Assembly: GCA_004299085.1 (NCBI GenBank)
Contig: SCQV01000007.1
Span: forward strand, 1-44,836
Direction of reading: 5' to 3'
Source of the DNA: Chitinophagaceae bacterium
GTDB taxonomy: Bacteria; Bacteroidota; Bacteroidia; Chitinophagales; Chitinophagaceae
DNA: 44,836 nt
The notes below the pieces were generated by a model, which was not told the DNA's origin, searched no databases, and saw nothing but the letters and a program-made list of their open reading frames with translations. Of this stretch, positions 25,042-43,937 are shown piece by piece. The position numbers and the translations under genes were made by a program. Each line of letters begins with the position of its first letter. Within the stretch, counting starts at the first letter, position 1.

Positions 25042-25710
25042 ATGGATATAGATTGTTTTTTTTCGAAATATGGATTGCCCGATACTCCTGCTGCCGGCTT
25101 GCAGTCACATATCCTCTTTTCAAAGGAGTTCCCAAGGAAAGGCTACCGGCTGGAAATAAAACCGCTGTGTCTGCAATCGGATATACCGATAGTACATCGT
25201 TGGACAACACAACCTTATACGCAGAAATTCTGGCAGGTGCAATGCAGCGTAGAAGAGCTGTACAATCAATACCTTAAGTTGTTGAAGGAAGGAATGCTCA
25301 ATGCGTTCATCGTACTGCTGAAAGGACTATATGTAGCGCAAGTGGATGTCTATCCGGTATTAAAGGACGAGCTGGCCGCCCACTATCCGGCACAGCCTAC
25401 GGATTTCGGGCTACATCTTTTGATGGCGCCGTATAAAAACATCATTCGCAGTTATCCCAGAAGGCTGGAGCACCTTTCTCAGGATGTGCTGATAACGGCC
25501 TTATCTTTCCTGTTCAGCTCCGGTTCGATACAGCGGGCCGTTGCAGAACCGGACTGTCGTAACGGGACAGCCAACCTGCTCGCACAGGAAGTGGGTTTCC
25601 GGATGATAAAAAAAATACAGTTGTCGTATAAAGAAGCTAATCTGTATGAATATACCAAAGATGCTTTTCTGAAAAGGCATCCGGTAACGGATGCTGAACA
25701 ATATCCTTAA
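25042..25710 (+). CDS. AlcB/IucB-like siderophore acetyltransferase (GNAT fold)
   Basis: A 222-residue acyltransferase. VHRWTTQPYTQKFW (residues 51-64) matches the substrate-side motif of the AlcB/IucB/RhbD family (HRWM..P....FW). DFGLHLLMAP (121-130) matches the acyl-CoA-binding turn. In known pathways the enzyme acylates an N-hydroxylated diamine or lysine to make the hydroxamate. The hydroxylase that would supply that substrate is two genes on. It starts the operon, 17 bases before the membrane protein. Which acyl group or amine is used cannot be read from the sequence. Confidence 0.82.
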   Translation: MDIDCFFSKYGLPDTPAAGLQSHILFSKEFPRKGYRLEIKPLCLQSDIPIVHRWTTQPYTQKFWQVQCSVEELYNQYLKLLKEGMLNAFIVLLKGLYVAQVDVYPVLKDELAAHYPAQPTDFGLHLLMAPYKNIIRSYPRRLEHLSQDVLITALSFLFSSGSIQRAVAEPDCRNGTANLLAQEVGFRMIKKIQLSYKEANLYEYTKDAFLKRHPVTDAEQYP

Positions 25711-25727
25711 AACAAAATAACATTGCT

Positions 25728-26798
25728 ATGAATCCTTCGAGAAACACCACCATAGACGTGGCAAGGGGCTTTATTGTCTTCATTATGCCCGCCGTACACT
25801 CCCTGATGCTTTACAGCACCAAATCCGTACAGACTTCGTGGCTCGGCATTATTTTCGGTTTCCTTGCCGAAGGGCCGGGTGCACAATTATTCATGGTGTT
25901 GATGGGCATATCCCTCACGCTGGGCAGGCCGAAGACCCTTCGGAAGGTGCTAATCCGCAGCTTGTTGTTATTAGCGCTGGGCTACCTGCTCAATCTGACG
26001 AAACTGCTCATCCCGTATTCTTTAGGAATGTTTCCACCCGCACTATTGCAAGCTTACGGTATTGCACCGGGTGTACGTGGCGCGTTGCAATTGCTGACGA
26101 TGGGCGATATTCTGGAATTCGCCGCTCCTGCATACCTGCTTACCTGGATGGTGTACCGGCTTCCCCATAATCGTATTTGGGCTGTTACGGGCATCTTAGC
26201 GGTTACAGTCGTCTCACCTTTAGTTTGGGACAAACAAAGTGTCATTATAGTAGTGCAATACTTGTTGCAGCTCATCGGCGGGCAGCCGCCACGGGTCTTT
26301 TTCCCGCTTTTTCCCTGGCTGGTCTATCCACTCTTTGGATTGTTGTTGGGATGTTGTATGAAGCAATGGAAAACCCGAAAGCTCTATCGTAATATGGCTT
26401 TTGCAGGTATCCTGCTGCTGGTGGCCGGTAAAGCACTGGCGCATTTTGAACCTGCGGGGTGGGAAGGCAATTTTTACCGCACAGGGCCTGCGGGAACATT
26501 GTATCATCTTGGCATTGTAACATTATGGCTTTGCCTTTGCCGGCTGGCCGTAACGAAAATCAGGTGGAATTATTTCTACCAATTTTTGTCGTGGTTGAGT
26601 AAACACATTACCAGCGTTTATATTCTGCAATGGAATGTTGTCTGCTGGCTGTTGCCGCTGTTTGGATTCAGCCGGTTGGGGCTGCTGCCCTCCGTATGCG
26701 CGATTATTATTACCTCCGCCGTGAGCTTTGGACTTAGCCGGTTCATGGACAAACTATCTGTATCCTATCATCCATTAAAAACCATATCGTATGAATGA
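25728..26798 (+). CDS. Polytopic acyltransferase-like membrane protein (DUF1624/HGSNAT-like)
   Basis: A 356-residue protein with about ten hydrophobic segments. The start, NTTIDVARGFIVFIMPAVHS, resembles the RxxxLDxxRG opening of heparan-alpha-glucosaminide N-acetyltransferase-like and YeiB/acyltransferase-3-like families; GAQLFMVLMGISLTLGRPK is also typical. Such proteins transfer acyl groups across membranes or act on envelope substrates. Its stop overlaps the next start by eight bases, so it is translationally coupled to the hydroxylase, suggesting a role with the siderophore such as modification or passage across the membrane. That role is inference. Confidence 0.75.
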   Translation: MNPSRNTTIDVARGFIVFIMPAVHSLMLYSTKSVQTSWLGIIFGFLAEGPGAQLFMVLMGISLTLGRPKTLRKVLIRSLLLLALGYLLNLTKLLIPYSLGMFPPALLQAYGIAPGVRGALQLLTMGDILEFAAPAYLLTWMVYRLPHNRIWAVTGILAVTVVSPLVWDKQSVIIVVQYLLQLIGGQPPRVFFPLFPWLVYPLFGLLLGCCMKQWKTRKLYRNMAFAGILLLVAGKALAHFEPAGWEGNFYRTGPAGTLYHLGIVTLWLCLCRLAVTKIRWNYFYQFLSWLSKHITSVYILQWNVVCWLLPLFGFSRLGLLPSVCAIIITSAVSFGLSRFMDKLSVSYHPLKTISYE

Positions 26799-28161
26799 AA
26801 CTACCTATGACCTCCTCGGCATCGGCATCGGACCTTTTAACTTAGGTCTTGCCGCCCTAACGGAAAATATTTCCGGTTTGAAATGCCTCTTCCTCGACGA
26901 GAACAATTCCTTTAGCTGGCACGCCGGCATGTTGATGCCCTGGGCAAGAATGCAGGTACCTTTCCATGCGGATTTGGTAACGCTGGCAGACCCATGCAAT
27001 AAGTATTCTTATCTTTCTTTTCTGAAAGCCAAAAATCGCTTGTTTCGCTTCACTATTCTGGAAAAATATTTTCCCTTACGCAGTGAGTACGACGATTACT
27101 GCAAATGGGTAGCCATTCAACTAAAAACATTATGTTTCGGCTTTAGGTGCGAAAGAGTAACATACGATAATAATTTACATATCTATAAAGTATTTGCATG
27201 GAATACCTACGATAAACAAACCGAATGTTTTTATACAAAGCATCTTGTTATAGGAATTGGCTCCGTGCCGCATGTTCCGGAATGTGCCAGGGATAAAATG
27301 CCCTTACCTTATTTATTCCATTCTTCCGCTTATCTCCAATGTAAAGAGGCCTTGCCGGATAAAGGTGACGTAACCATTATAGGATCAGGGCAAAGTGCAG
27401 GGGAAATCTTCTATGACCTGCTGGAGCAATACCCGCATCAAATCAAAAAGCTCCGGTGGCTGACCCGCTCCACATTTTTCCCGATGGATTACAGCAAATT
27501 TTCCTGTGAAATGACTTCACCGGAATATGTGGATTATTTTTATTCACTGGATAGTGCCCTGAAAGAAGAAATCCTTTCGCGGCAGGCGCATTTATACAAG
27601 GGCATCAACACTTCACTCATTGATGCGATTTATGATAAGCTGTATTTACTTTCTTTGACACATCCGTCTTTGTATTCCGATATTTCCCTGAACAACCATT
27701 GCGAATTGAAAGAGATACAACCGAACGGATCCGGAATGTCTCTGCGATTTTTTCATAGAGAAAAGAAGCAATGCTTTGAGCTTGCTACCGGAGCCGTGAT
27801 ACTGGCCACCGGTTACGAATATCCTTTCCCCTCCTTTCTCCAATCTGTCAGGGAACGGCTGTCCTTTGATGATGAAGGGCGTTTGGCAGCGCAACGCAAC
27901 TACAGCATTGATAAGGAAGGCCGAACTATCTTTGTCCAAAATGCCGAACTGCATACGCACGGTTTTAATTCGGCAGATTTGGGATTGGGTGTTTACCGCA
28001 ATATCATTATCATTAATACCTTATTAGCTCGTGAACATTACAGCCTCGGGGACGGCAATATTTTTCAGACCTTCGATGCTCCTGCCGGCATACCGCCCGA
28101 TATGCCGTTGAAGGAAGCAATACAAGACACTTTCTCACGTGTCTTAATTCCTGAAGGATAG
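26791..28161 (+). CDS. IucD/SidA/PvdA-family lysine or ornithine N-hydroxylase
   Basis: A 456-residue flavin monooxygenase. The FAD site is GIGIGPFNLGL (about residues 10-20). The substrate-side motif FSWHAGMLMPWARMQVPFHA is close to the family consensus, followed by LADPCNKYSYLSFL. The NADPH site is GSGQSAGE (about 199-206), and the C-terminal ATGY motif is ATGYEYPFP. These enzymes hydroxylate the terminal amine of lysine, ornithine or a diamine as the first step to hydroxamate siderophores. It is the last gene of the three-gene operon. NIS synthetases, decarboxylase and exporter genes expected for a complete aerobactin- or desferrioxamine-like pathway are not in the window. Confidence 0.92.
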   Translation: MNETTYDLLGIGIGPFNLGLAALTENISGLKCLFLDENNSFSWHAGMLMPWARMQVPFHADLVTLADPCNKYSYLSFLKAKNRLFRFTILEKYFPLRSEYDDYCKWVAIQLKTLCFGFRCERVTYDNNLHIYKVFAWNTYDKQTECFYTKHLVIGIGSVPHVPECARDKMPLPYLFHSSAYLQCKEALPDKGDVTIIGSGQSAGEIFYDLLEQYPHQIKKLRWLTRSTFFPMDYSKFSCEMTSPEYVDYFYSLDSALKEEILSRQAHLYKGINTSLIDAIYDKLYLLSLTHPSLYSDISLNNHCELKEIQPNGSGMSLRFFHREKKQCFELATGAVILATGYEYPFPSFLQSVRERLSFDDEGRLAAQRNYSIDKEGRTIFVQNAELHTHGFNSADLGLGVYRNIIIINTLLAREHYSLGDGNIFQTFDAPAGIPPDMPLKEAIQDTFSRVLIPEG

Positions 28162-30867: not shown

Positions 30868-33312
30868 ATGGAAAAGAGGCTGGAAGAACTATATCCGATT
30901 ATGGATATTGAACATGATTGCATTTTATCGAAACAGGGCGATATAACACTTGCGTATAAAGTTACCTTACCCGAAGTCTTTACGCTCTCGGACGAGGAAT
31001 ACGAAGCCTTGCACCAGGCGTTTATCAAAGCGGTGAAGCTGCTGCCGAAGAACAGCACTCTGCATAAACAGGATTGGTTTGTCAAAGAAACTTATCACGC
31101 CGACTTTGAAAAAGAGGACACGAGTTTTTTGACAAGGGCAAGCGAACGGTTTTTCAATGAAAGACCATACCTGCATCACGAATGCTTTATCTTTTTGACA
31201 AAAACGCCCGATGACAGAAGACCGTCGTCATCGGTTATCAATAGCCTGACAAGACCGAACCTTGTACCTGAACAAACTTTAAGTTTTAAGGCTTTACAAG
31301 CTTTTGAAAATAGTGCAGGACAGTTTGCCCATATTCTCTCGGATGCAGGCATCCAATTAGAAAGGCTAAACAACTATGCGATAAGAAGTACTAAAAACAA
31401 AGCGGGCATCATTGAACGGTATTTGTTTTTGTCTTCGGAAACAAAAGATTTTATCAAAGACATTCAGTTTACGGATGAACTGAAAATTGGCGACAACCAG
31501 GTGCAGCTCTATACTTTAGCCGATGCGCAGGACTTGCCAGCGCTTTGTGGCAGCCGTATCAATTACGAAAAGTATTCAACGGATAGGACAAAATTCAGCA
31601 CCGGCTTTGCGGCAACGCTCGGGCTATTGTTGCCTGTAAATCATATCTACAATCAATATCTTGTTATCGGCGATGCGCAGGCGACCATTAAAAAGTTAGA
31701 AAGCAAAAAATTAAGATTACAGTCGCTCGCCAATTATTCGAGGGAGAACGCCATTGCGCGGGATGCAGTCAATGATTTTTTAAATGAATGTATTGCCGAG
31801 CAAAGCCTGCCTGTTAAGGCGCATTTTAATTTGTTATGCTGGACGGATAGTAAGGAAGAATTGAAAGACATCCGCAATGCCGTTACGGCTTCGCTCGCTC
31901 AAATAGACGCTACGGCAAAACAGGAAACGGCGGGCGCGGCGCAGATTTTCTGGTCGGGCATCCCGGGCAATGCGGGGGATTTACCGCTCAATGAAACATT
32001 TGATACGTTCGCGGCGCAGGCTTGTTGTTTCTTCAATATGGAAACCAATTACCGCGACAGCATCAGTGCTGTGGGTCTGAGGCTCGGCGACAGACTGACG
32101 GGCAGGCCTGTCCATGTAGATATCAGTGATGAGCCAATGAAAATGGGTATTTGCACCAACCGCAACAAATTCATTTTGGGACCGTCAGGCTCGGGCAAAA
32201 GCTTTTTCACTAACCACATGGTACGTTCTTATTATGAACAAGGGACTCACATCGTTCTCGTGGACGTGGGGCATTCTTATAAAGGCCTGTGCGATATGGT
32301 TCACGGGTATTACTTTACTTATAGTGAAACAGACCCCATTCGTTTTAATCCTTTCTATATCGGGGCGGGGGACACGCTTGATATTGAAAAAAAAGAGAGC
32401 ATTAAAACCTTGTTGTTGGCTTTATGGAAAAAAGATGATGAGCGCTTTACGCGCAGCGAATACGTTGCCTTATCCAATGCTTTGCAGGGATATTTTGACA
32501 AGCTGCACAAAGACCGGTCAGTCTTCCCGTGCTTCAACACTTTCTATGAATATATCCAAAGCGAGTTTTTGGAAGTATTGGAAAAAGACAAGGTTAAGGA
32601 ACGGCATTTTGATGTGGATAATTTTCTCTTTGTATTAAGACCGTTTTATTCGGGCGGGGAATTTGATTTTTTGCTGAACGCAACGGAAAACCTGGATTTG
32701 CTTCAACAGCCCTTTATTGTTTTTGAATTGGACAATATCAAGGATAGCATATTATTTCCGGTCGTTACACTGATTATTATGGAAGTTTTTATCAGCAAGA
32801 TGCGTAAGCTCAAAGGCATTCGCAAAATGATCTTGATAGAGGAAGCGTGGAAAGCCATAGCCCGCGAGGGTATGGCAGAGTATATCAAGTATTTGTTTAA
32901 AACCGTCAGGAAATTCTTTGGCGAAGCGATTGTCGTAACGCAGGAAGTGGAAGACATTGTTTCTTCGCCGGTTGTCAAACAGGCAATCATCAATAACAGC
33001 GATTGCAAGATATTGTTAGACCAGTCGAAGTACCAGAACAAGTTTGAGCAGATACAGGAACTATTGGGTTTGACCGAAAAAGAAAAAGCGTTGGTATTGT
33101 CCGTGAACAAAGCCAATGACCCGGACAGAAAATATAAAGAGGTGTTTATTTCTCTCGGCGGTATGTTATCAAAAGTTTACAGGACGGAAGTGTCGCGTGA
33201 GGAATATTACACCTATACGACCGAAGAAAGCGAGAAAGTAAAAATGCTGGAATACGCTGAAAAGTACGGTAGTATAGAAAAAGGGATAAAAGCGCTTGTA
33301 AATGATAATTAA
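30868..33312 (+). CDS. traG: TraG-type conjugation ATPase (VirB4-like)
   Basis: An 814-residue ATPase that powers assembly and substrate movement in the type IV secretion channel. The Walker A site is GPSGSGKS at about residues 438-445. A Walker B site MILIEEAWKAI lies near 653-665. The N-terminal 400 residues match the TraG_N domain (IEHDCILSKQGDITLAYKV, HKQDWFVKE). Length is normal for Bacteroidota TraG. The name should not be confused with the VirD4-like TraG of RP4: this is the VirB4 homologue, and no VirD4 coupling protein is seen in the window. Confidence 0.95.
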   Translation: MEKRLEELYPIMDIEHDCILSKQGDITLAYKVTLPEVFTLSDEEYEALHQAFIKAVKLLPKNSTLHKQDWFVKETYHADFEKEDTSFLTRASERFFNERPYLHHECFIFLTKTPDDRRPSSSVINSLTRPNLVPEQTLSFKALQAFENSAGQFAHILSDAGIQLERLNNYAIRSTKNKAGIIERYLFLSSETKDFIKDIQFTDELKIGDNQVQLYTLADAQDLPALCGSRINYEKYSTDRTKFSTGFAATLGLLLPVNHIYNQYLVIGDAQATIKKLESKKLRLQSLANYSRENAIARDAVNDFLNECIAEQSLPVKAHFNLLCWTDSKEELKDIRNAVTASLAQIDATAKQETAGAAQIFWSGIPGNAGDLPLNETFDTFAAQACCFFNMETNYRDSISAVGLRLGDRLTGRPVHVDISDEPMKMGICTNRNKFILGPSGSGKSFFTNHMVRSYYEQGTHIVLVDVGHSYKGLCDMVHGYYFTYSETDPIRFNPFYIGAGDTLDIEKKESIKTLLLALWKKDDERFTRSEYVALSNALQGYFDKLHKDRSVFPCFNTFYEYIQSEFLEVLEKDKVKERHFDVDNFLFVLRPFYSGGEFDFLLNATENLDLLQQPFIVFELDNIKDSILFPVVTLIIMEVFISKMRKLKGIRKMILIEEAWKAIAREGMAEYIKYLFKTVRKFFGEAIVVTQEVEDIVSSPVVKQAIINNSDCKILLDQSKYQNKFEQIQELLGLTEKEKALVLSVNKANDPDRKYKEVFISLGGMLSKVYRTEVSREEYYTYTTEESEKVKMLEYAEKYGSIEKGIKALVNDN

Positions 33313-33324
33313 AAAATATGAACG

Positions 33325-34002
33325 ATGAAGACGTTACCGATTTTGTTTTTGTTGATGCTGTTGTCGTTATGCAGTATCCACAAGTGTGAGGCACAGGATA
33401 TTCCGGGGTCGGGCGTGGTAACGGGCCTGGTAAAGCGTGTAATCAAAGCGATTGATTTGGAAGTGCAGCGTTTGCAGAACAATACGATTGCCTTACAAAA
33501 TGTACAGAAAGTTTTAGAAAACACAGAATCCAAACTGCACCTCCATGAAATTGCCGGATGGATGCAAAAGCAAAAGGATTTGTACCAGCATTATTATAAT
33601 GAGTTGTGGGAAGTGAAAACCATTATTACCGATTATCACCGCATCAAAGAAATATCGGAAAAGCAAGTGGCGTTGGTCAATGCTTATAAACATGCCTGGG
33701 GCTTATTGCAGCAGGACAAGCACTTTACACCCGAAGAAATTTCTTATATGAGCGAAGTGTATAGCGGCATTCTTAACCAGACGATGGAAGACGCCAACGG
33801 TTTGCTGAATATTGTTACCGCTTTTACAACGCAGATGGATGATGCGGCAAGAATGAAGATGATTGACGATGTCGGCAACAAGGTAGATGAAAATTATAAC
33901 GACCTGCAACGCTTCAACACCGAAAACGAAATACTCTCCTTACAAAGGAGTAAGGACGCAAATGATGCAGCGGAGGTGAAATGGATGTATGGCCTCCCCT
34001 AA
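33325..34002 (+). CDS. TraI-like conjugal transfer protein, paralogue 1
   Basis: A 225-residue exported, mostly helical protein. The signal peptide ends near residue 23 (HKCEAQ). The body is coiled-coil-like, with the C-terminal family signature of a DDAARMKMID helix and FNTENEILSLQRSKDAN. Homologues in Bacteroidota elements are called TraI; the name does not mean relaxase. It starts 12 bases after the TraG stop, so is cotranscribed. It is one of three successive related genes, probably periplasmic VirB5-like components, a role inferred from position. Confidence 0.82.
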   Translation: MKTLPILFLLMLLSLCSIHKCEAQDIPGSGVVTGLVKRVIKAIDLEVQRLQNNTIALQNVQKVLENTESKLHLHEIAGWMQKQKDLYQHYYNELWEVKTIITDYHRIKEISEKQVALVNAYKHAWGLLQQDKHFTPEEISYMSEVYSGILNQTMEDANGLLNIVTAFTTQMDDAARMKMIDDVGNKVDENYNDLQRFNTENEILSLQRSKDANDAAEVKWMYGLP

Positions 34003-34023: not shown

Positions 34024-34087
34024 GAAAAAGTATTCCCAAAAAATGATGAAATGAAAAAGTATTCCCAAAAAATGATGAAATGAAAAA
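34024..34087 (+). repeat. 29-base tandem repeat spanning the next gene's start
   Basis: A 29-base unit containing GAAAAAGTATTCCC and AATGATGAAAT occurs twice in full, and the third copy begins at the start codon of the next gene (GAAAAAGTATTTA). The period is not a multiple of three, so the duplicated ATG at 34051 reads a short frame, MKKYSQKMMK then stop, that ends just past the true start. Confidence 0.88.
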
Positions 34088-34721
34088 GTATTTACTCATA
34101 CTGATTACACTTCTTACGGCAAGTAATATTCACGCGCAGACTTTCTCGGAGTTCTTTCAACAGAAAAAGACGCAGAAAAAATATTTGTTGAAGCAAATAG
34201 CAGAACTGCAAAGCTACATCGAGCTGGCAAAAAAAGGATACGGCATTGTGAGTGACGGCTTAAACTTTATCGGTGATTTAAAGGGCGGAAAATTCAATTT
34301 AAGTAAGGATTATTTTTCATCGTTGGATAATATCAGCCACATGGTAAAAAAAGACAACGACATTGCGAATACTGTCTCTTTGCAGGCTTCGATTAATGAT
34401 TTGTATAACAAGGCAAAGAAAGATGCCGGCAGCGTTTATTTGTCTTCGTCCGAAAAAAATTATATCCAAAAAGTCTGGAGCAACTTGCTGGATAAATGCA
34501 ATGACAACATCACACAGTTGGATAATCTTACTACGGCGGGCCATTACAAAATGACCGAAAACGAAAGGCTGCAAGCCATTGATAAAGTGTATAACGATAT
34601 GCAGGACAAAAAGGATTTTGCCAACAGTTTCTATAATGAAGTAAAAGTATTGATTAACCAACGGACAAAAGAACAAATGGAAGCAAAGGAATTGGAAAGC
34701 ATATATACGCCTTCTCCATAG
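34080..34721 (+). CDS. TraI-like / TerB-annotated conjugal transfer protein, paralogue 2
   Basis: A 213-residue exported helical protein. The signal peptide spans about 1-20 (LLTASNIHAQ). The FSEFFQQKKTQKKYLLKQIAELQSYIELAKKGY opening is characteristic of the set often labelled TerB-family in annotations of Bacteroidota elements; I see no link to tellurite resistance. The C-terminal half shares MTENERLQAIDKVYNDM with paralogue 3 (MSDAERLAAIDRLYDD). Its start codon is the end of a tandem repeat, and its stop is four bases from the 3' end of an antisense tRNA gene. Confidence 0.82.
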   Translation: MKKYLLILITLLTASNIHAQTFSEFFQQKKTQKKYLLKQIAELQSYIELAKKGYGIVSDGLNFIGDLKGGKFNLSKDYFSSLDNISHMVKKDNDIANTVSLQASINDLYNKAKKDAGSVYLSSSEKNYIQKVWSNLLDKCNDNITQLDNLTTAGHYKMTENERLQAIDKVYNDMQDKKDFANSFYNEVKVLINQRTKEQMEAKELESIYTPSP

Positions 34722-34725
34722 TGAG

Positions 34726-34799
34726 TGGATCTTACCGGATTCGAACCGGTGACCTCTTCCATGTCAAGGAAGCACTCTAACCAACTGAGCTAAAGATCC
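34726..34799 (-). tRNA. tRNA-Val (GAC)
   Basis: A complete cloverleaf read leftward. The acceptor GGATCTT/AAGATCC is perfect with discriminator A. The D arm is GCTC/GAGT with one G-U pair. The anticodon arm CTTCC-TTGACAT-GGAAG gives anticodon GAC. The T arm is ACCGG-TTCGAAT-CCGGT. No CCA is encoded, as for the other tRNA here. All stems are intact, so it looks functional. It lies antisense between two tra genes, a very unusual place for a valine tRNA. Confidence 0.95.
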
Positions 34800-34842
34800 A
34801 AAACAGGGACGAAAATAATCAAGAGCGGCAAAAAAGAAAAAT

Positions 34843-35487
34843 ATGATGAAAAGAATTTGTTTATATATCATTTTGTTAGGAGCGATAAATTTTTGTAACC
34901 AGGCGAACGCCCAGGACCAGGAGATTGAGCAACTGATTCTGGATGTACAGAAACTATCGCAGTTCAAGCAAATCCTTAGCGATATGAAAACGGCTTATAC
35001 AGTTATCATGCAAGGCTATACAACTGTGCGGGATTTGTCGCAGGGCGATTTCGATCTGCACAAAGCATTCCTGGACGGATTGATGGCCATTAGCCCTGCG
35101 GTCAGGAACTATAAGAAAGCTGCCGACATTGTTTCCATGCAATTGGAAATGCTTAAGGAATATCATTCTGCTTTCAACCGGTTTAAATCCAGCGACCTAT
35201 TCAATCCTGATGAACTGGTATATATCGGCAAAGTGTACAATAGTTTATTAGATGTAACGCTTAAAAACATCAGCGACTTAACGACAGTTATTACCGCCAA
35301 TCAATTAAGGATGTCCGATGCAGAAAGGCTTGCGGCAATTGATAGGCTCTACGACGATACGTTGGATAAGCTGACTTTCCTTCGTTCATTCAACAACAAT
35401 ACTTCCATGTTGGCATTGCAAAGGCAAAAGGAGATGAACGAAGCAAAAGCGTTACAGGAAGATTACGGAGAACCTCCGGTTCCTTAA
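34843..35487 (+). CDS. TraI-like / TerB-annotated conjugal transfer protein, paralogue 3
   Basis: A 214-residue exported helical protein. The signal peptide ends near residue 22 (NQANAQ). The family segment FKQILSDMKTAYTVIMQGYTTVRDLSQGDFDLHKAFLD aligns with paralogue 2's KKGYGIVSDGLNFIGDLKGGKFNL, and the MSDAERLAAIDRLYDD helix is shared. It lies across the antisense tRNA-Val from paralogue 2 and about 95 bases before TraJ. Probably a periplasmic part of the mating-pair apparatus; three such genes in a row suggest duplication and specialisation. Confidence 0.82.
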   Translation: MMKRICLYIILLGAINFCNQANAQDQEIEQLILDVQKLSQFKQILSDMKTAYTVIMQGYTTVRDLSQGDFDLHKAFLDGLMAISPAVRNYKKAADIVSMQLEMLKEYHSAFNRFKSSDLFNPDELVYIGKVYNSLLDVTLKNISDLTTVITANQLRMSDAERLAAIDRLYDDTLDKLTFLRSFNNNTSMLALQRQKEMNEAKALQEDYGEPPVP

Positions 35488-35580: not shown

Positions 35581-36840
35581 ATGGCGATGAAAAATAGAGG
35601 TGTACGGGTCTTATTATTTGCAGTGTTGGGAATAGCCATTCCAAACCTTGTGTTTGCACAGGACGGCAGTAGTGCACTTGCCGGGGATATACAAGGCTTG
35701 CACAGCGTGCTTGACCAGCTCTATAATGAGATGATTCCTATGTGTGGCCAACTCATTGGCGTGGGTAGAGCATTAGCAGCCTTTGCGGCGCTGTGGTATA
35801 TCGCCGCAAGAGTGTGGAGGCATATCGCTAATGCTGAACCTGTTGATTTTTATCCGTTGTTAAGACCATTCGTTATAGGCTTTGCCATTTTGATTTTTCC
35901 TTCTGTTATCAGTATGATGAATGGTGTGTTACAACCGATCGTTACCGGAACGGCAAGTATGGTTACCAACTCTGATGAAGCGGTAGCCGCTTTACTCAAA
36001 GCTAAAGCGGACGCTGTGAAGCAAACAAATGCCTGGCAAATGTATGTAGGCGAAAGTGGCAACGGCGATAGGGATAAATGGTATAAATATACACATCCTG
36101 GCGAAGACCCTTCAAACGAAGGTGTTTTTGAAGGTATCGGCGACGATATCAAGTTTGCGATGGCAAAGGAATCCTATAGCTTTCGTAATTCAATAAAGGA
36201 ATGGATGAGCGAGGTCTTGCAGGTTTTATTTGCCGCGGCTTCTTTATGTATCAATACTATCCGAACGTTTAATCTTATCATTTTAGCGATACTCGGCCCA
36301 ATCGTCTTCGGGCTTGGTGTCTTCGATGGATTTCACTTCACGATTAGGCATTGGCTGGCGCGTTATATCAATGTATTCTTGTGGCTGCCTGTGGCCAACA
36401 TCTTCGGCGCGGTGATTGGGAAGATACAGGAAAATATGCTGAAGATTGATCTGGCGCAGATTCAATCATCAGGTGATACATTCTTCAGCAGTACGGATAT
36501 GGGCTATCTCATCTTTATGATAATTGGCATCATCGGTTATTTCACGGTTCCCTCTATCGCAGGACATATCATGCACGTAGGCGGCGGGGACGCCATCAAT
36601 AGCAAAGCGACCGCGCTCGCAGGCGGTGTGGCAGGCGGAGCTGTTGCAGGGGCAATAACCGGAGGTGCTGCCGGAATCGGTGCTGCGGGCACTGCTATAA
36701 AAAATCTTGCAAATGCACCGAACGATTTTAAATCGGGTTATAACCAGGAGAGCACCGGCAAAGGCTTCGGGGCATCTATGGGCAGCGCATATGGCGGTGC
36801 GAGCGATTATATGAAGAACAAGTTAAGCGGCAACGATTGA
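35581..36840 (+). CDS. traJ: Conjugative transposon protein TraJ (VirB6-like)
   Basis: A 419-residue inner-membrane channel protein. A signal-like first hydrophobic segment (about 8-26) is followed by AGDIQGLHSVLDQLYNEMIPMCGQLI and several further segments (about 60-75, 100-118, 218-240, 262-285, 310-330). LPVANIFGAVIGKIQENM is a typical TraJ block. The C-terminal 80 residues are rich in Gly and Ala (GGVAGGAVAGAITGGAAG). VirB6-type proteins form the inner-membrane route for DNA. Next is TraK after 55 bases, in usual tra order. Confidence 0.92.
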   Translation: MAMKNRGVRVLLFAVLGIAIPNLVFAQDGSSALAGDIQGLHSVLDQLYNEMIPMCGQLIGVGRALAAFAALWYIAARVWRHIANAEPVDFYPLLRPFVIGFAILIFPSVISMMNGVLQPIVTGTASMVTNSDEAVAALLKAKADAVKQTNAWQMYVGESGNGDRDKWYKYTHPGEDPSNEGVFEGIGDDIKFAMAKESYSFRNSIKEWMSEVLQVLFAAASLCINTIRTFNLIILAILGPIVFGLGVFDGFHFTIRHWLARYINVFLWLPVANIFGAVIGKIQENMLKIDLAQIQSSGDTFFSSTDMGYLIFMIIGIIGYFTVPSIAGHIMHVGGGDAINSKATALAGGVAGGAVAGAITGGAAGIGAAGTAIKNLANAPNDFKSGYNQESTGKGFGASMGSAYGGASDYMKNKLSGND

Positions 36841-36895: not shown

Positions 36896-37513
36896 ATGTT
36901 TCAGAAAATGAAAAATATAAATACGGCTTTTAGGTATATGCGGCTGTTCACTATGCTGGTAGTAACAGGAAGTGTTTTGCTCGATGGTTTTGTTTTCTAC
37001 AAAAGTTATAAACTGGCAAATGCAATGCAGAATAAAGTGTATGTGTTAGCCAACGGTAAAGCCATTGAGGCTTTTTCCTCCGTAAGAAAGGATAACCTTA
37101 TAGTAGAAGCCAAAGATCATATCAAAAGGTTTCATGAATACTTCTTTACGTTGGCGCCCGATGACGGGCAGATTAAATCTACTATTCGTAAAGCGCTTTA
37201 TCTCGCAGACGGCTCAGCAAAAAACATCTATGACGATTTGCAGGAAAACAATTATTACTCGCAGATGATTTCAGGGAACGTCAGCCAGGATATTACCATA
37301 GACAGTATAAGGTTGAATACTGACATTTATCCTTTTTACTTCCGTTGTTACGGCACGGAAAAAATTACTCGCCCGGTGAGCATTACCTACCGGAACTTAA
37401 TTACAGAGGGCTATTTACGCGAAATCCCGCGCAGCGATAATAACCCGCACGGGTTTTTAATTGAGCGGTGGAATATTTTGGAAAACAAGGATTTGAAAAC
37501 AGTTGGGAGATAA
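36896..37513 (+). CDS. traK: Conjugative transposon protein TraK (VirB8-like)
   Basis: A 205-residue bitopic membrane protein. One N-terminal membrane segment (about 18-36) is followed by a periplasmic domain with the TraK pattern: KDHIKRFHEYFFTLAPDD and later IDSIRLNTDIYPFYFRCYG. It is expected to bridge the inner-membrane and core complexes of the transfer apparatus. MKNIN five codons downstream is a possible alternative start. Order TraJ-K-L-M-N is conserved. Confidence 0.93.
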   Translation: MFQKMKNINTAFRYMRLFTMLVVTGSVLLDGFVFYKSYKLANAMQNKVYVLANGKAIEAFSSVRKDNLIVEAKDHIKRFHEYFFTLAPDDGQIKSTIRKALYLADGSAKNIYDDLQENNYYSQMISGNVSQDITIDSIRLNTDIYPFYFRCYGTEKITRPVSITYRNLITEGYLREIPRSDNNPHGFLIERWNILENKDLKTVGR

Positions 37514-37960: not shown

Positions 37961-39253
37961 ATGAGGCAAGAGATGAATGCAATGAATGATTTGAGATTGA
38001 AACGGCAAAGAAAATTTTTATTATTCCTGCCGGTAATTGTCATTCCTTTTATGACCCTGCTGTTCTGGTCGGCAGGGATTGTGGGAAAGGCTGATGCAAA
38101 GCCGACAAATAATACGAAGCAAACAGCTTTTAATTTTCACCTGCCGGCTGCAAGGCAGGCAAAGGACAGCAACTGGAACAAAATGCAGTATTATGCGCAG
38201 GCAGCGAAGGATTCGGAAAAGCTGCGTTCGTTGATGCAAGGCTACGGCAATGACAGCGGTGCAGGCAATACAGACCGCAACAATGTTTCGGGAATAACTG
38301 CAAGTGCAGACCCTAAAGAAAAAATGATAGAAGAAAAAATAGCTGCATTGAATAAAAAGCTCAATGCGCCGGTTGAATCCATTCCTGAAAATTCCTCTTA
38401 TGCCAATGAAATCCCAGACCCGCCAGCGACAGAGAAGCGGGCAGCGTTGGAAAGAATGCAGGAATTGCAACAATGGGCTTCGCAGCCTTCTTCTTTGGAT
38501 AATGAGAAAGATACAAAGCAGTCCGACCCGGAATTGGATAAGTTGGACGGAATGCTCAACAAAGTATTGGATATACAGCATCCTGAAAGAGTACAACAGC
38601 AGTTGCAACAAGAATCTGAAAAAAATAAAGAATTGGTGTATCCGGTGCTGATGAAAAACAACAGCATAGATATTTCTTTATTAAGAAATGTTCAGGATAC
38701 CGCTTCAAGAAAAAAGTTGATTGTATCAACCAATAACCATTTTTACGGGTTGAATGAAGATGCAAGCACTATTACAACTATCAACACCATTCCCGCTGAA
38801 ATACCCGAAGAACAAGTTTTGATAAACGGAGCGATAGTCAAACTGCAATTGTTGGACAATGTATATATACGCGGCACATTGGTTCCTAAAAATCAATTGC
38901 TTTACGGTGTGGCAAGTTTGAAAGGTGAACGCCTGAATATTGATATTAGTTCCATCGGCTATAATGGGCAAATCCTGCCTGTTGCCTTATCGGCCTATGA
39001 TTTGGACGGGCAGCAGGGCTTATACATACCCGGCACTATCACCCGGGATGTCGCCAAACAATCAGCAGACCAAGGTATTGAAACCTTAGATATGGGAACA
39101 TATAATACTACACTCGGTGCACAAGCTGCATCGGCAGGCATACAAGCTGCTAAGCAACTCATCGGCAAAAAAATAAAGCTCGTGAAAATTACAGTCAGAA
39201 GTGGCTATAAGGTTTGGCTTCGGGATATGAATGATAAAACAATTAAAAATTAG
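37961..39253 (+). CDS. traM: Conjugative transposon protein TraM (VirB10-like)
   Basis: A 430-residue core-complex protein. There is one N-terminal membrane segment (about 20-40, LLFLPVIVIPFMTLLFW), then a long, low-complexity, Gln- and Glu-rich periplasmic linker (about 50-240). The conserved C-terminal domain (about 270-425) contains VLINGAIVKLQLLDNVYIRG, LYGVASLKGERLNIDISSI and DQGIETLDMG. VirB10-type proteins span both membranes. The linker has typical TraM elements such as DPKEKMIEEKIAALNKKLN. Confidence 0.93.
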   Translation: MRQEMNAMNDLRLKRQRKFLLFLPVIVIPFMTLLFWSAGIVGKADAKPTNNTKQTAFNFHLPAARQAKDSNWNKMQYYAQAAKDSEKLRSLMQGYGNDSGAGNTDRNNVSGITASADPKEKMIEEKIAALNKKLNAPVESIPENSSYANEIPDPPATEKRAALERMQELQQWASQPSSLDNEKDTKQSDPELDKLDGMLNKVLDIQHPERVQQQLQQESEKNKELVYPVLMKNNSIDISLLRNVQDTASRKKLIVSTNNHFYGLNEDASTITTINTIPAEIPEEQVLINGAIVKLQLLDNVYIRGTLVPKNQLLYGVASLKGERLNIDISSIGYNGQILPVALSAYDLDGQQGLYIPGTITRDVAKQSADQGIETLDMGTYNTTLGAQAASAGIQAAKQLIGKKIKLVKITVRSGYKVWLRDMNDKTIKN

Positions 39254-39277: not shown

Positions 39278-40141
39278 ATGAAAAGTGTAGTAAAGGTTTT
39301 TGTGATGATGATTTTTTCATTCGGATTGATTTACACAGAACAAGTCAACGCTCAGGAATTGCAAGACAACAAAACGGATACAACTATCGGTTTGTATCAT
39401 CTGGAATTAAGCGATAACAAGACGACCAATCTAATTTTTCCTTATGCCGTTAAGAGTGTGGACAGGGGTAGCGCAGATGTGATTGCACAGGTGGTGCAGG
39501 GCTTTGGGAATGTATTACAATTAAAAGCGAATGTTGCGGGCTTCAAACAAACCAATATCACGGTGATTACTTCGGACGGAAAGTTTTATTCTTTTCTTGC
39601 TGACTATAACACCAATCCGAAATCGTTGAACCTTTCTTTTGTTGGAAGCGATAGTGAAAATACGGCGCATTTAAAAAGCTTCGCCTTGCCTGATGACTAT
39701 TATAATGAAGCTATTTTGAATGCAGATGCTGTAAGCATCCTTTCAGCCAAATCTTTTTTATCCAGGCATACTATCAATGAACAAATGAAGCTAAGGTTGG
39801 AGGGTATTTACCTGAAAGCCGGTTTGATGTGGTTTAAACTAAGCATCCACAATCAATCACAGGTTGGTTTTGACGTGGACAATATTTCTTTTTCCGTAGT
39901 GGATAAGAAACAAGTCAAGCGTACCGCAAGGCAGGAAATTTTGTTGCAACCTACCTTTACAAAATCAGTGGAAGTAATACAAGGCAATACAACTAAAGAA
40001 CTCGTCTTTGGATTTAAGCCGTTCACACTTACATCCGCAAAGCGATTGAAAATACAAATCAGTGAAAAATCAGGCGGCAGAAAATTAATCCTGCTTGTCA
40101 AAGCAAAGAAGCTGTTGCGTGCAAGATTGCAGAAAACATAA
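39278..40141 (+). CDS. traN: Conjugative transposon protein TraN (VirB9-like, DUF4138)
   Basis: A 287-residue exported protein. The signal peptide ends near residue 26 (QVNAQ). LELSDNKTTNLIFPYAVKSVDRGS is the DUF4138 opening, in which a strand binds the VirB10-like partner. The end of the frame matches the family with LVFGFKPFTLTSAKRLKIQISEKSGGRKL. TraN forms the outer ring of the core complex. TraO, which usually follows, is absent: the next gene is a methyltransferase. Confidence 0.93.
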   Translation: MKSVVKVFVMMIFSFGLIYTEQVNAQELQDNKTDTTIGLYHLELSDNKTTNLIFPYAVKSVDRGSADVIAQVVQGFGNVLQLKANVAGFKQTNITVITSDGKFYSFLADYNTNPKSLNLSFVGSDSENTAHLKSFALPDDYYNEAILNADAVSILSAKSFLSRHTINEQMKLRLEGIYLKAGLMWFKLSIHNQSQVGFDVDNISFSVVDKKQVKRTARQEILLQPTFTKSVEVIQGNTTKELVFGFKPFTLTSAKRLKIQISEKSGGRKLILLVKAKKLLRARLQKT

Positions 40142-42281: not shown

Positions 42282-42362
42282 ATGAAGCAGGGTGAAAAAG
42301 AGTTTATAGATTTGTTAGCGTCAATAATTGTAGAAATCATTTTAAAAAAACTTACATCATGA
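42282..42362 (+). CDS. 26-residue ORF translationally coupled to the recombinase
   Basis: Too short for the ORF track. It begins with ATG shortly after GGAG, encodes MKQGEKEFIDLLASIIVEII and a basic end, and its TGA overlaps the recombinase ATG (ATGA). Small helical frames like this stand before recombinases in other Bacteroidota elements as I recall. Overlap suggests translational coupling controlling recombinase amount. It could also be only a leader peptide. Confidence 0.6.
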   Translation: MKQGEKEFIDLLASIIVEIILKKLTS

Positions 42363-43882
42363 ACGCTATTGGATATTTAAGGCTTAGCATGAAAGACCAA
42401 TCGAGATATTCTCTTGAATTCCAGGAGGCTGCGATTAGGCAATACTGCGAAAGGTATAAGATAAATCTTATCGCTATTTTCAAAGATAATGGACAATGCA
42501 GTGATAATTTCGATAGGCCGGATTATATAGCCTTAGAGAAATTTATCAAAGAACAAAATGGGAGAATAAACTATCTGATAGTAATGTGTCATGATAGATT
42601 CAGTCGCAATTTGCCCGAAGCTTTAATGAAAATTAAGTCTTTGGAGGATAAATTTGGACTAAAGGTTCTTGCTACTGAAGAATCACCGGAAATTGACAGT
42701 AGTGACCCTGATGTATTCCTTAATAGGGCTTTTAAATATCTAATGGCAAATAGTGAATTATTAAGGATAAGACAGAGGACTTCAAGAAGTATCCGTCAGG
42801 CACTTGAAAGCGGTCGGTTTGTCAATAAAGCACCTTATGGTTATATAAACAAAAAGCAAGAAGGACAAAGAGCTATTATTGTCCCGGATAGCGAAAAAGC
42901 AGTAATAATTAAGAAGATATTTTCGGATTTCCTGCTAGGTCATCCTCTTTCAATGATTCATAAAGAGGCGATGGCAATTGGATATACGGGTAAAAGTAAA
43001 AGCGCTATCCCGCGTCTCTTAAGCAATTGTGTATATGCCGGCTTAGTCAAATTGCCGGAAACAGCCAATTCTCCCGAAAGGTATATAAAGGGAATCCATC
43101 AAGGCATAGTGACAGAATTAGGATTTTGGCGTTGCCAGGAATTATTAGGCAACCGAAAACCTCAAAGATGCCTACCTGATGAAAAGGTTCCATTAAGAGG
43201 AATTTTAAAACATTCATGTGGTTCTCACATGACAGCCGGTTACAGTAAAGGGAAAAGGAAGCACTATTTATATTATCGGTGTGTAAAATGTAGTCATGTT
43301 AATGAATCCGGGGATCGGTTACATAATAAACTTTCGCAGATATTGGAGAATTTAAGTTTAACGGATACACAAGTTGAACGGTTGTCAAATTCCGTAAAAG
43401 AAAAATTAAAAATGGCTTGCGAGACACAAAAAGCAATTGCAAAGAAAATTCAATCAGCATTAAAAGATACAAACAATAAGCTGGAAAGTTTGGAAGAAAA
43501 ATTAATTAACGGGATGATTGAAAATCAAACTTATAAAAAGTGGTATAAGAAATTATCAATAGAGAAATCAAAATTACAGGCGCAGCTTAATGGCTCTGAA
43601 ATTGAACAAAATTCATTTATGGAAAAGGCAATAAAATTGATTCCATTCCTTACAGATTTAAATTCTATTTTTCAAAAGGCTACGATTCAACAAAAACATT
43701 TAATCTTGAAAGAGGTGTTCAAAGGTGGTATCGCTGTAAATGGGGGTGTACTTAGAACACCTTACCTACATCCGGCGCTATCTCATAACGAATTGATTTT
43801 AAATAAAAAAGGATTGCTTTTTGTTGAGCAATCCTTTCAAAAAGATGGTAAAAGTACCGTTCGTAGCGAGATCGGGAGTTGA
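42359..43882 (+). CDS. Large serine recombinase (resolvase/recombinase domain)
   Basis: A 507-residue site-specific recombinase. The resolvase domain (about 1-145) has the catalytic Ser10 in YLRLS and the arginine-bearing HDRFSRN. The recombinase domain (about 160-265) contains APYGYINKK. A zinc-ribbon-like part with CGSHM and CVKCSHV (about 280-315) and a coiled coil (about 345-405) complete the family plan. It would integrate and excise the element. The last six codons lie inside tRNA-Met in antisense, and the tail also crosses a terminator hairpin for that tRNA, so the gene end coincides with the likely element-chromosome junction. Stop codon at the tRNA 3' part. Confidence 0.93.
   Translation: MNAIGYLRLSMKDQSRYSLEFQEAAIRQYCERYKINLIAIFKDNGQCSDNFDRPDYIALEKFIKEQNGRINYLIVMCHDRFSRNLPEALMKIKSLEDKFGLKVLATEESPEIDSSDPDVFLNRAFKYLMANSELLRIRQRTSRSIRQALESGRFVNKAPYGYINKKQEGQRAIIVPDSEKAVIIKKIFSDFLLGHPLSMIHKEAMAIGYTGKSKSAIPRLLSNCVYAGLVKLPETANSPERYIKGIHQGIVTELGFWRCQELLGNRKPQRCLPDEKVPLRGILKHSCGSHMTAGYSKGKRKHYLYYRCVKCSHVNESGDRLHNKLSQILENLSLTDTQVERLSNSVKEKLKMACETQKAIAKKIQSALKDTNNKLESLEEKLINGMIENQTYKKWYKKLSIEKSKLQAQLNGSEIEQNSFMEKAIKLIPFLTDLNSIFQKATIQQKHLILKEVFKGGIAVNGGVLRTPYLHPALSHNELILNKKGLLFVEQSFQKDGKSTVRSEIGS
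43808..43837 (-). terminator. Leftward terminator after tRNA-Met, inside the recombinase frame
   Basis: AAAGGATTGCT and AGCAATCCTTT make an eleven-base stem with an eight-base loop. Read leftward it is followed by a run of six T, ideal for ending tRNA-Met transcription about 25 bases after its 3' end. On the plus strand it lies inside the 3' end of the recombinase gene. Confidence 0.75.
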
Positions 43883-43937
43883 ACCCGAGACCTCAGGGTT
43901 ATGAATCCTGCGCTCTCACCAACTGAGCTACCTCGCC
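43864..43937 (-). tRNA. tRNA-Met (CAT)
   Basis: Read leftward, the acceptor GGCGAGG pairs with TCTCGCT (G-U at both ends of the stem). The D arm is GCTC/GAGC. The anticodon loop TTCATAA gives CAT. The T arm TCGGG-TTCAACT-CCCGA is perfect. No CCA is encoded. It could be elongator Met or, if lysidine-modified, Ile2; the Met call is the simpler. Its 3' end faces the conjugative element. Confidence 0.93.

Follow-up and report, generated by a model that had tools for sequence, protein, structure and literature searches.

A tRNA-Val(GAC) gene lies in antisense orientation within the conjugation operon of the DNA analysed here (the window, 44,836 nucleotides, which makes up an entire contig of a 625-contig draft genome). 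We propose that it is a complete and probably functional gene carried by a CTnDOT-type element, and that it was gained in an ancestor shared with the related element of another genome, G020. Judging from the comparison of sequences, we give this reading a probability of about one half. The tRNA gene probably belongs to the element and is not an error of assembly, because the closest related element, that of G020, keeps a 25-base piece of it at the same spot.

The tRNA gene and its place in the operon

ARAGORN called a tRNA-Val with the anticodon GAC on the minus strand at 34725-34799, and Rfam returned an RF00005 match at 34726-34799 (72.0 bits against a gathering score of 29 bits, E = 6e-14). 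The two programs agree with the first-pass annotation, which had described a complete tRNA-Val with this anticodon on the opposite strand between the second and third TraI-like genes. The location given there was correct, while its start coordinate (34726 rather than 34725) was off by one base, because ARAGORN also counts C74.

All 21 of the 21 stem pairs are standard, the anticodon loop has 7 nucleotides and holds GAC, and position 73 is an A, as in a canonical tRNA-Val(GAC). The covariance score is approximately the fifth best among the 39 tRNAs of the genome, and the absence of an encoded CCA is shared with most of the chromosomal orthologues that we inspected. The closest chromosomal gene is the tRNA-Val(GAC) of G079 (96%). 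Compared to the three closest chromosomal orthologues checked, those of G079, G020, and G036, all differences fall in stems and each pair is kept; over the wider set of chromosomal tRNA-Val(GAC) genes from the family (G079, G020, G036, G171, G214, and G335), nearly all differences are likewise pair-preserving and located in stems. On these alignments, the element tRNA shows the substitution pattern expected of a tRNA that has kept working as it evolved.

The surrounding CTnDOT-type conjugation operon spans approximately 30.1 to 41.8 kb of the window, and the TraG ATPase, TraJ, TraK, TraM, and TraN families were all recognised in it (Table 1). Between TraG and TraJ lie three tandem proteins of 213-225 aa, ORF1 to ORF3, which had no Pfam or NCBIfam match and are labelled TraI-like because of their position in the operon. 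The 3' end of the tRNA is 3 bp past the stop codon of ORF2 (34721), and the start of ORF3 (34843) is 43 bp beyond the tRNA 5' end. On both sides of the tRNA the operon is co-linear, with its genes in the normal family order. No relaxase was recognised among the window proteins scanned.

Table 1. Window coordinates of the tRNA gene and of the transfer genes around it.
Feature	Position	Strand	Basis or remark
TraG (VirB4-type) ATPase	30868..33312	+	Pfam P-loop_TraG
ORF1, first TraI-like protein	33325..34002	+	operon place
ORF2, second TraI-like protein	34080..34721	+	56% identical to G020 counterpart
tRNA-Val(GAC) gene, intact, CCA not encoded	34725..34799	-	ARAGORN, Rfam
Spacer, 43 bp, tRNA 5' end to ORF3	34800..34842	.	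holds TATTTTCG
ORF3, third TraI-like protein	34843..35487	+	67-69% identical to G020 counterpart
TraJ	35581..36840	+	Pfam CtnDOT_TraJ
TraK	36896..37513	+	NCBIfam TIGR03781
TraM	37961..39253	+	Pfam Transposon_TraM
TraN (DUF4138)	39278..40141	+	family match

As a candidate promoter for the tRNA we considered TATTTTCG, which lies 10 bp upstream of the gene. It matches the Bacteroidota TAnnTTTG promoter motif at 5 of 6 positions and at the typical distance; a match of this quality is no better than chance (shuffle p = 0.38), and the candidate was rejected. No T-run terminator was seen for the tRNA. With neither a significant promoter nor a terminator seen, expression of the tRNA is putative.

Two other features of this genome were recorded. 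A second, diverged tra operon is present (G000:C280:22322-22933), and its ORF3 homologue is 44% identical. Beside the tra operon of the window, at 25042-28161, translations were read of acetyltransferase-like, acyltransferase-like, and lysine/ornithine N-hydroxylase-like genes. These suggest a siderophore-type cluster, possibly carried as cargo. The acyltransferase-like gene (25728-26798) is 37-43% identical to genes (L076:9022-10185 and L130:373-1371) that adjoin the chromosomal tRNA-Val(GAC) of G020 and G214, a likeness that may be a coincidence or a trace of the original neighbourhood of the tRNA.

The same junction in related operons and the tRNA-Val genes of their hosts

We searched for ORF3 in approximately 300 genomes of the family, 400 of the order, and 300 of the class, as well as in a genome-contig collection, plasmids, and viral contigs. 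The closest relative found was G020 (ORF3 ~67% identical). No sister element closer than G020 was found in plasmids (best ~30% identity) or in the order and class samples, and viral contigs gave no match. In most related operons the junction between ORF2 and ORF3 measures about -11 to +40 bp and is without a tRNA; across approximately 55 loci it held no tRNA sequence, G020 excepted, and usually measured 0-40 bp. The earlier statement that tRNA genes are normally absent from transfer operons therefore holds for this family. The next closest operon, that of G143, has a junction of a few bases without any insert. Its tra locus (L094) has in-frame stops or a frameshift in ORF3 and in the upstream paralogues, and this element may be decaying.

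To find pieces of tRNA, 109 distinct tRNAs were compared with the ~55 tra loci in a short-word BLAST search. The single significant piece inside another tra operon was that of G020, and beyond the window and G020 none rose above chance. The junction between ORF2 and ORF3 of G020 holds an exact 25-nt piece of tRNA-Val(GAC), nucleotides 18-42, in the same orientation as in the window. It is identical to the chromosomal tRNA-Val(GAC) of G020 itself (25/25) and matches the tRNA of the window at 23 of 25 positions. Among 399 family genomes, only in G020 is the anticodon-arm motif present twice, once in the chromosomal tRNA gene and once at the tra junction. A degraded full-length tRNA around the 25-mer was considered and rejected, as the likeness of its 5' flank to a tRNA does not exceed that of shuffled sequence (p = 0.35).

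Between the window and G020, the DNA of the ORFs that flank the junction is only 60-67% identical. At 0.667 per base, the chance of a 25-nt block staying exact is 0.667^25 = 4e-5. Because the flanking ORFs have diverged this far, an unused ancestral insert is unlikely to have kept such a block; and because the block outlasted that divergence, the tRNA probably stayed whole over a long period, its truncation in G020 being recent.

In the genome of the window, no further copy of tRNA-Val(GAC) was found among the 625 contigs of the draft, and tRNA-Val(UAC) was likewise not found. A chromosomal GAC copy could be missing from the assembly, because the draft lacks some expected tRNAs, tRNA-Val(UAC) included. 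The other sequenced member of the same genus, G001, possesses tRNA-Val(UAC) and lacks tRNA-Val(GAC). Within the Chitinophagaceae-like family the distribution of tRNA-Val(GAC) is patchy: a clear copy was obtained in approximately 20 of 399 genomes, and at the stringency of this search most others yielded none. The valine codon GTC is in slight excess in the tra genes (9.5 per 1000, compared to 6.1 in other genes). Codon supply to the tra genes was rejected as an explanation, since their valine codon use differs little from that of other genes.

Origin of the tRNA gene

One gain in a common ancestor best explains these data, because, among the elements compared, only these two related ones have the same tRNA at the same site and on the same strand. 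The tRNA would have entered the junction of ORF2 and ORF3 in the common ancestor of the window and G020 elements, in antisense, and no tra gene would have been broken, because the insertion falls just after the ORF2 stop codon. The piece in G020 suggests that the tRNA was already present before the two elements separated, and that it was lost from G020 by partial deletion. While carried, the tRNA gene would supply a valine tRNA reading GUC and GUU to hosts such as this genus, in which the other sequenced member has only tRNA-Val(UAC). G020 has its own chromosomal tRNA-Val(GAC), and there the element copy would have become redundant and been mostly deleted. The tRNA of the element would then be of use to a host without the isoacceptor, or at least be tolerated there, and would be redundant in a host that has it. 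The support for common ancestry comes from one sister element, that of G020. The first-pass annotation had offered that the tRNA may be borne by a mobile element, which is supported by its position within a CTnDOT-type conjugation operon and by the remnant at the same site in G020; its other suggestion, a recent insertion, is made less likely by that remnant, which matches the same tRNA and shares its site and strand.

It is a different matter whether this lineage of conjugative elements keeps the antisense tRNA-Val(GAC) for a function, either to supply a tRNA that its hosts lack or to place in the tra mRNA a complement of the host anticodon arm. On sequence grounds we regard this as doubtful.

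The tRNA could instead be a silent passenger, an intact copy brought in by chance recombination that is not expressed and has no role, with the piece in G020 deriving from the same or from a second event. This is a possible but clearly secondary explanation. It would account for the lack of a significant promoter upstream of the tRNA, for flanks that, a few bases next to the tRNA aside, share no homology with chromosomal tRNA-Val loci, and for relatives in which the tra operon is intact without the tRNA. However, a silent copy shared by both elements should have decayed while the flanks diverged, and the copy in the window is flawless.

Separate captures at a hot spot, in which the two elements each acquired tRNA-Val at this junction from the lineage of their respective hosts, would also fit, because the G020 piece agrees fully with the tRNA of G020 itself but shows 2 mismatches in 25 positions to that of the window. 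The nearness of the window tRNA to the chromosomal gene of G079 is consistent with this as well. We nonetheless consider two such events unlikely: to capture the same tRNA, on the same strand, at the same junction twice would call for a mechanism, and neither a recombinase nor an obvious target duplication was found at the junction.

An attachment-site relic, which the first-pass annotation had also raised, would mean that an element was once integrated at tRNA-Val, leaving the junction as a former att site or as the joint of a composite. tRNA genes are common integration targets, integration usually duplicates the tRNA 3' end, and such events are often recognisable by partial tRNA copies (PMC9897764). 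A partial tRNA, a direct repeat, an element boundary, and an integrase would be expected on this account; what we found is a complete tRNA, internal to a co-linear and uninterrupted operon, with no integrase adjacent to it, and a piece in G020 (nucleotides 18-42) that is not a 3' end. The recombinases of the two elements are also different and lie elsewhere. In the window, a large serine recombinase (42359-43882, named from its translation) overlaps 20 bp of the 3' end of a tRNA-Met on the other strand (43863-43937), while the element of G020 has a tyrosine integrase near mnmE (also named from its translation). The tRNA-Met could be the right end of the element, used as its attachment site, although its 3' end was not seen again elsewhere in the window. 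As an integration end, the tRNA-Met junction is more plausible than the tRNA-Val junction, and the relic is improbable.

Even less probable is a regulatory role, in which the complement of tRNA-Val(GAC) in the tra mRNA ahead of ORF3 would pair with the host tRNA and tune expression or protect that tRNA. G020 does keep just the region from the D-loop to the anticodon arm, a perfect 25-nt complement of its host tRNA. On the other hand, only two elements are involved, the window carries the tRNA gene in full, and no unusual structure was found in the tra mRNA (fold z = -0.07 and 0.84). A chimera of unrelated contigs joined at the tRNA, although the draft is in 625 contigs, is scarcely credible, as the genes on either side neighbour each other in one operon with the usual family order, the assembly contains the tRNA once, and G020 holds its piece at the same place; an assembly error, which the first-pass annotation had named as the outcome that would overturn it, is unlikely on these grounds.

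Comparison with known elements and significance

The operon resembles those of CTnDOT-type elements of Bacteroidota (TraE-TraN operon) in having TraG, TraJ, TraK, TraM, and TraN in the usual order. It differs in that a tRNA gene interrupts the TraI-like series, whereas the ~55 relatives are without one, except for the 25-nt piece of G020. Mobile elements, plasmids and phages among them, are known to carry tRNA genes and arrays, as with the tRNA array units of mycobacterial plasmids and phages (PMC5966550, PMC12803027). These share with our case a complete tRNA gene on a mobile element; however, the arrays sit in a cargo region, while here a single tRNA lies antisense between transfer genes. 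In tRNA-dependent lysogeny, a phage tRNA replaces the host tRNA that was broken by integration (PMC10865867), and there too the tRNA gene of a mobile element adds to the host tRNA set. In contrast, the recombinase end of the present element is at tRNA-Met, and no disrupted tRNA-Val(GAC) gene was found in the incomplete draft of this genome (G000). The partial tRNA copies left by integration (PMC9897764) also tie tRNA sequence to a mobile element, but here the gene is complete, internal to an operon, and without att repeats, and the G020 piece comes from the interior of the tRNA.

In a limited search of the open-access literature, we found no description of a single tRNA nested antisense in a conjugation operon. 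The presence of tRNA genes on mobile elements is already known, and a single antisense tRNA nested in a transfer operon is an unusual variant of it. If the tRNA is expressed, its transcription and that of the tra genes would be opposed, and a conjugative element would change the tRNA set of its host from inside its own transfer operon. With an intact copy where a member of the same genus has no such tRNA, and a 25-nt remnant where the host has its own copy, the question of why mobile elements carry tRNAs becomes directly testable.
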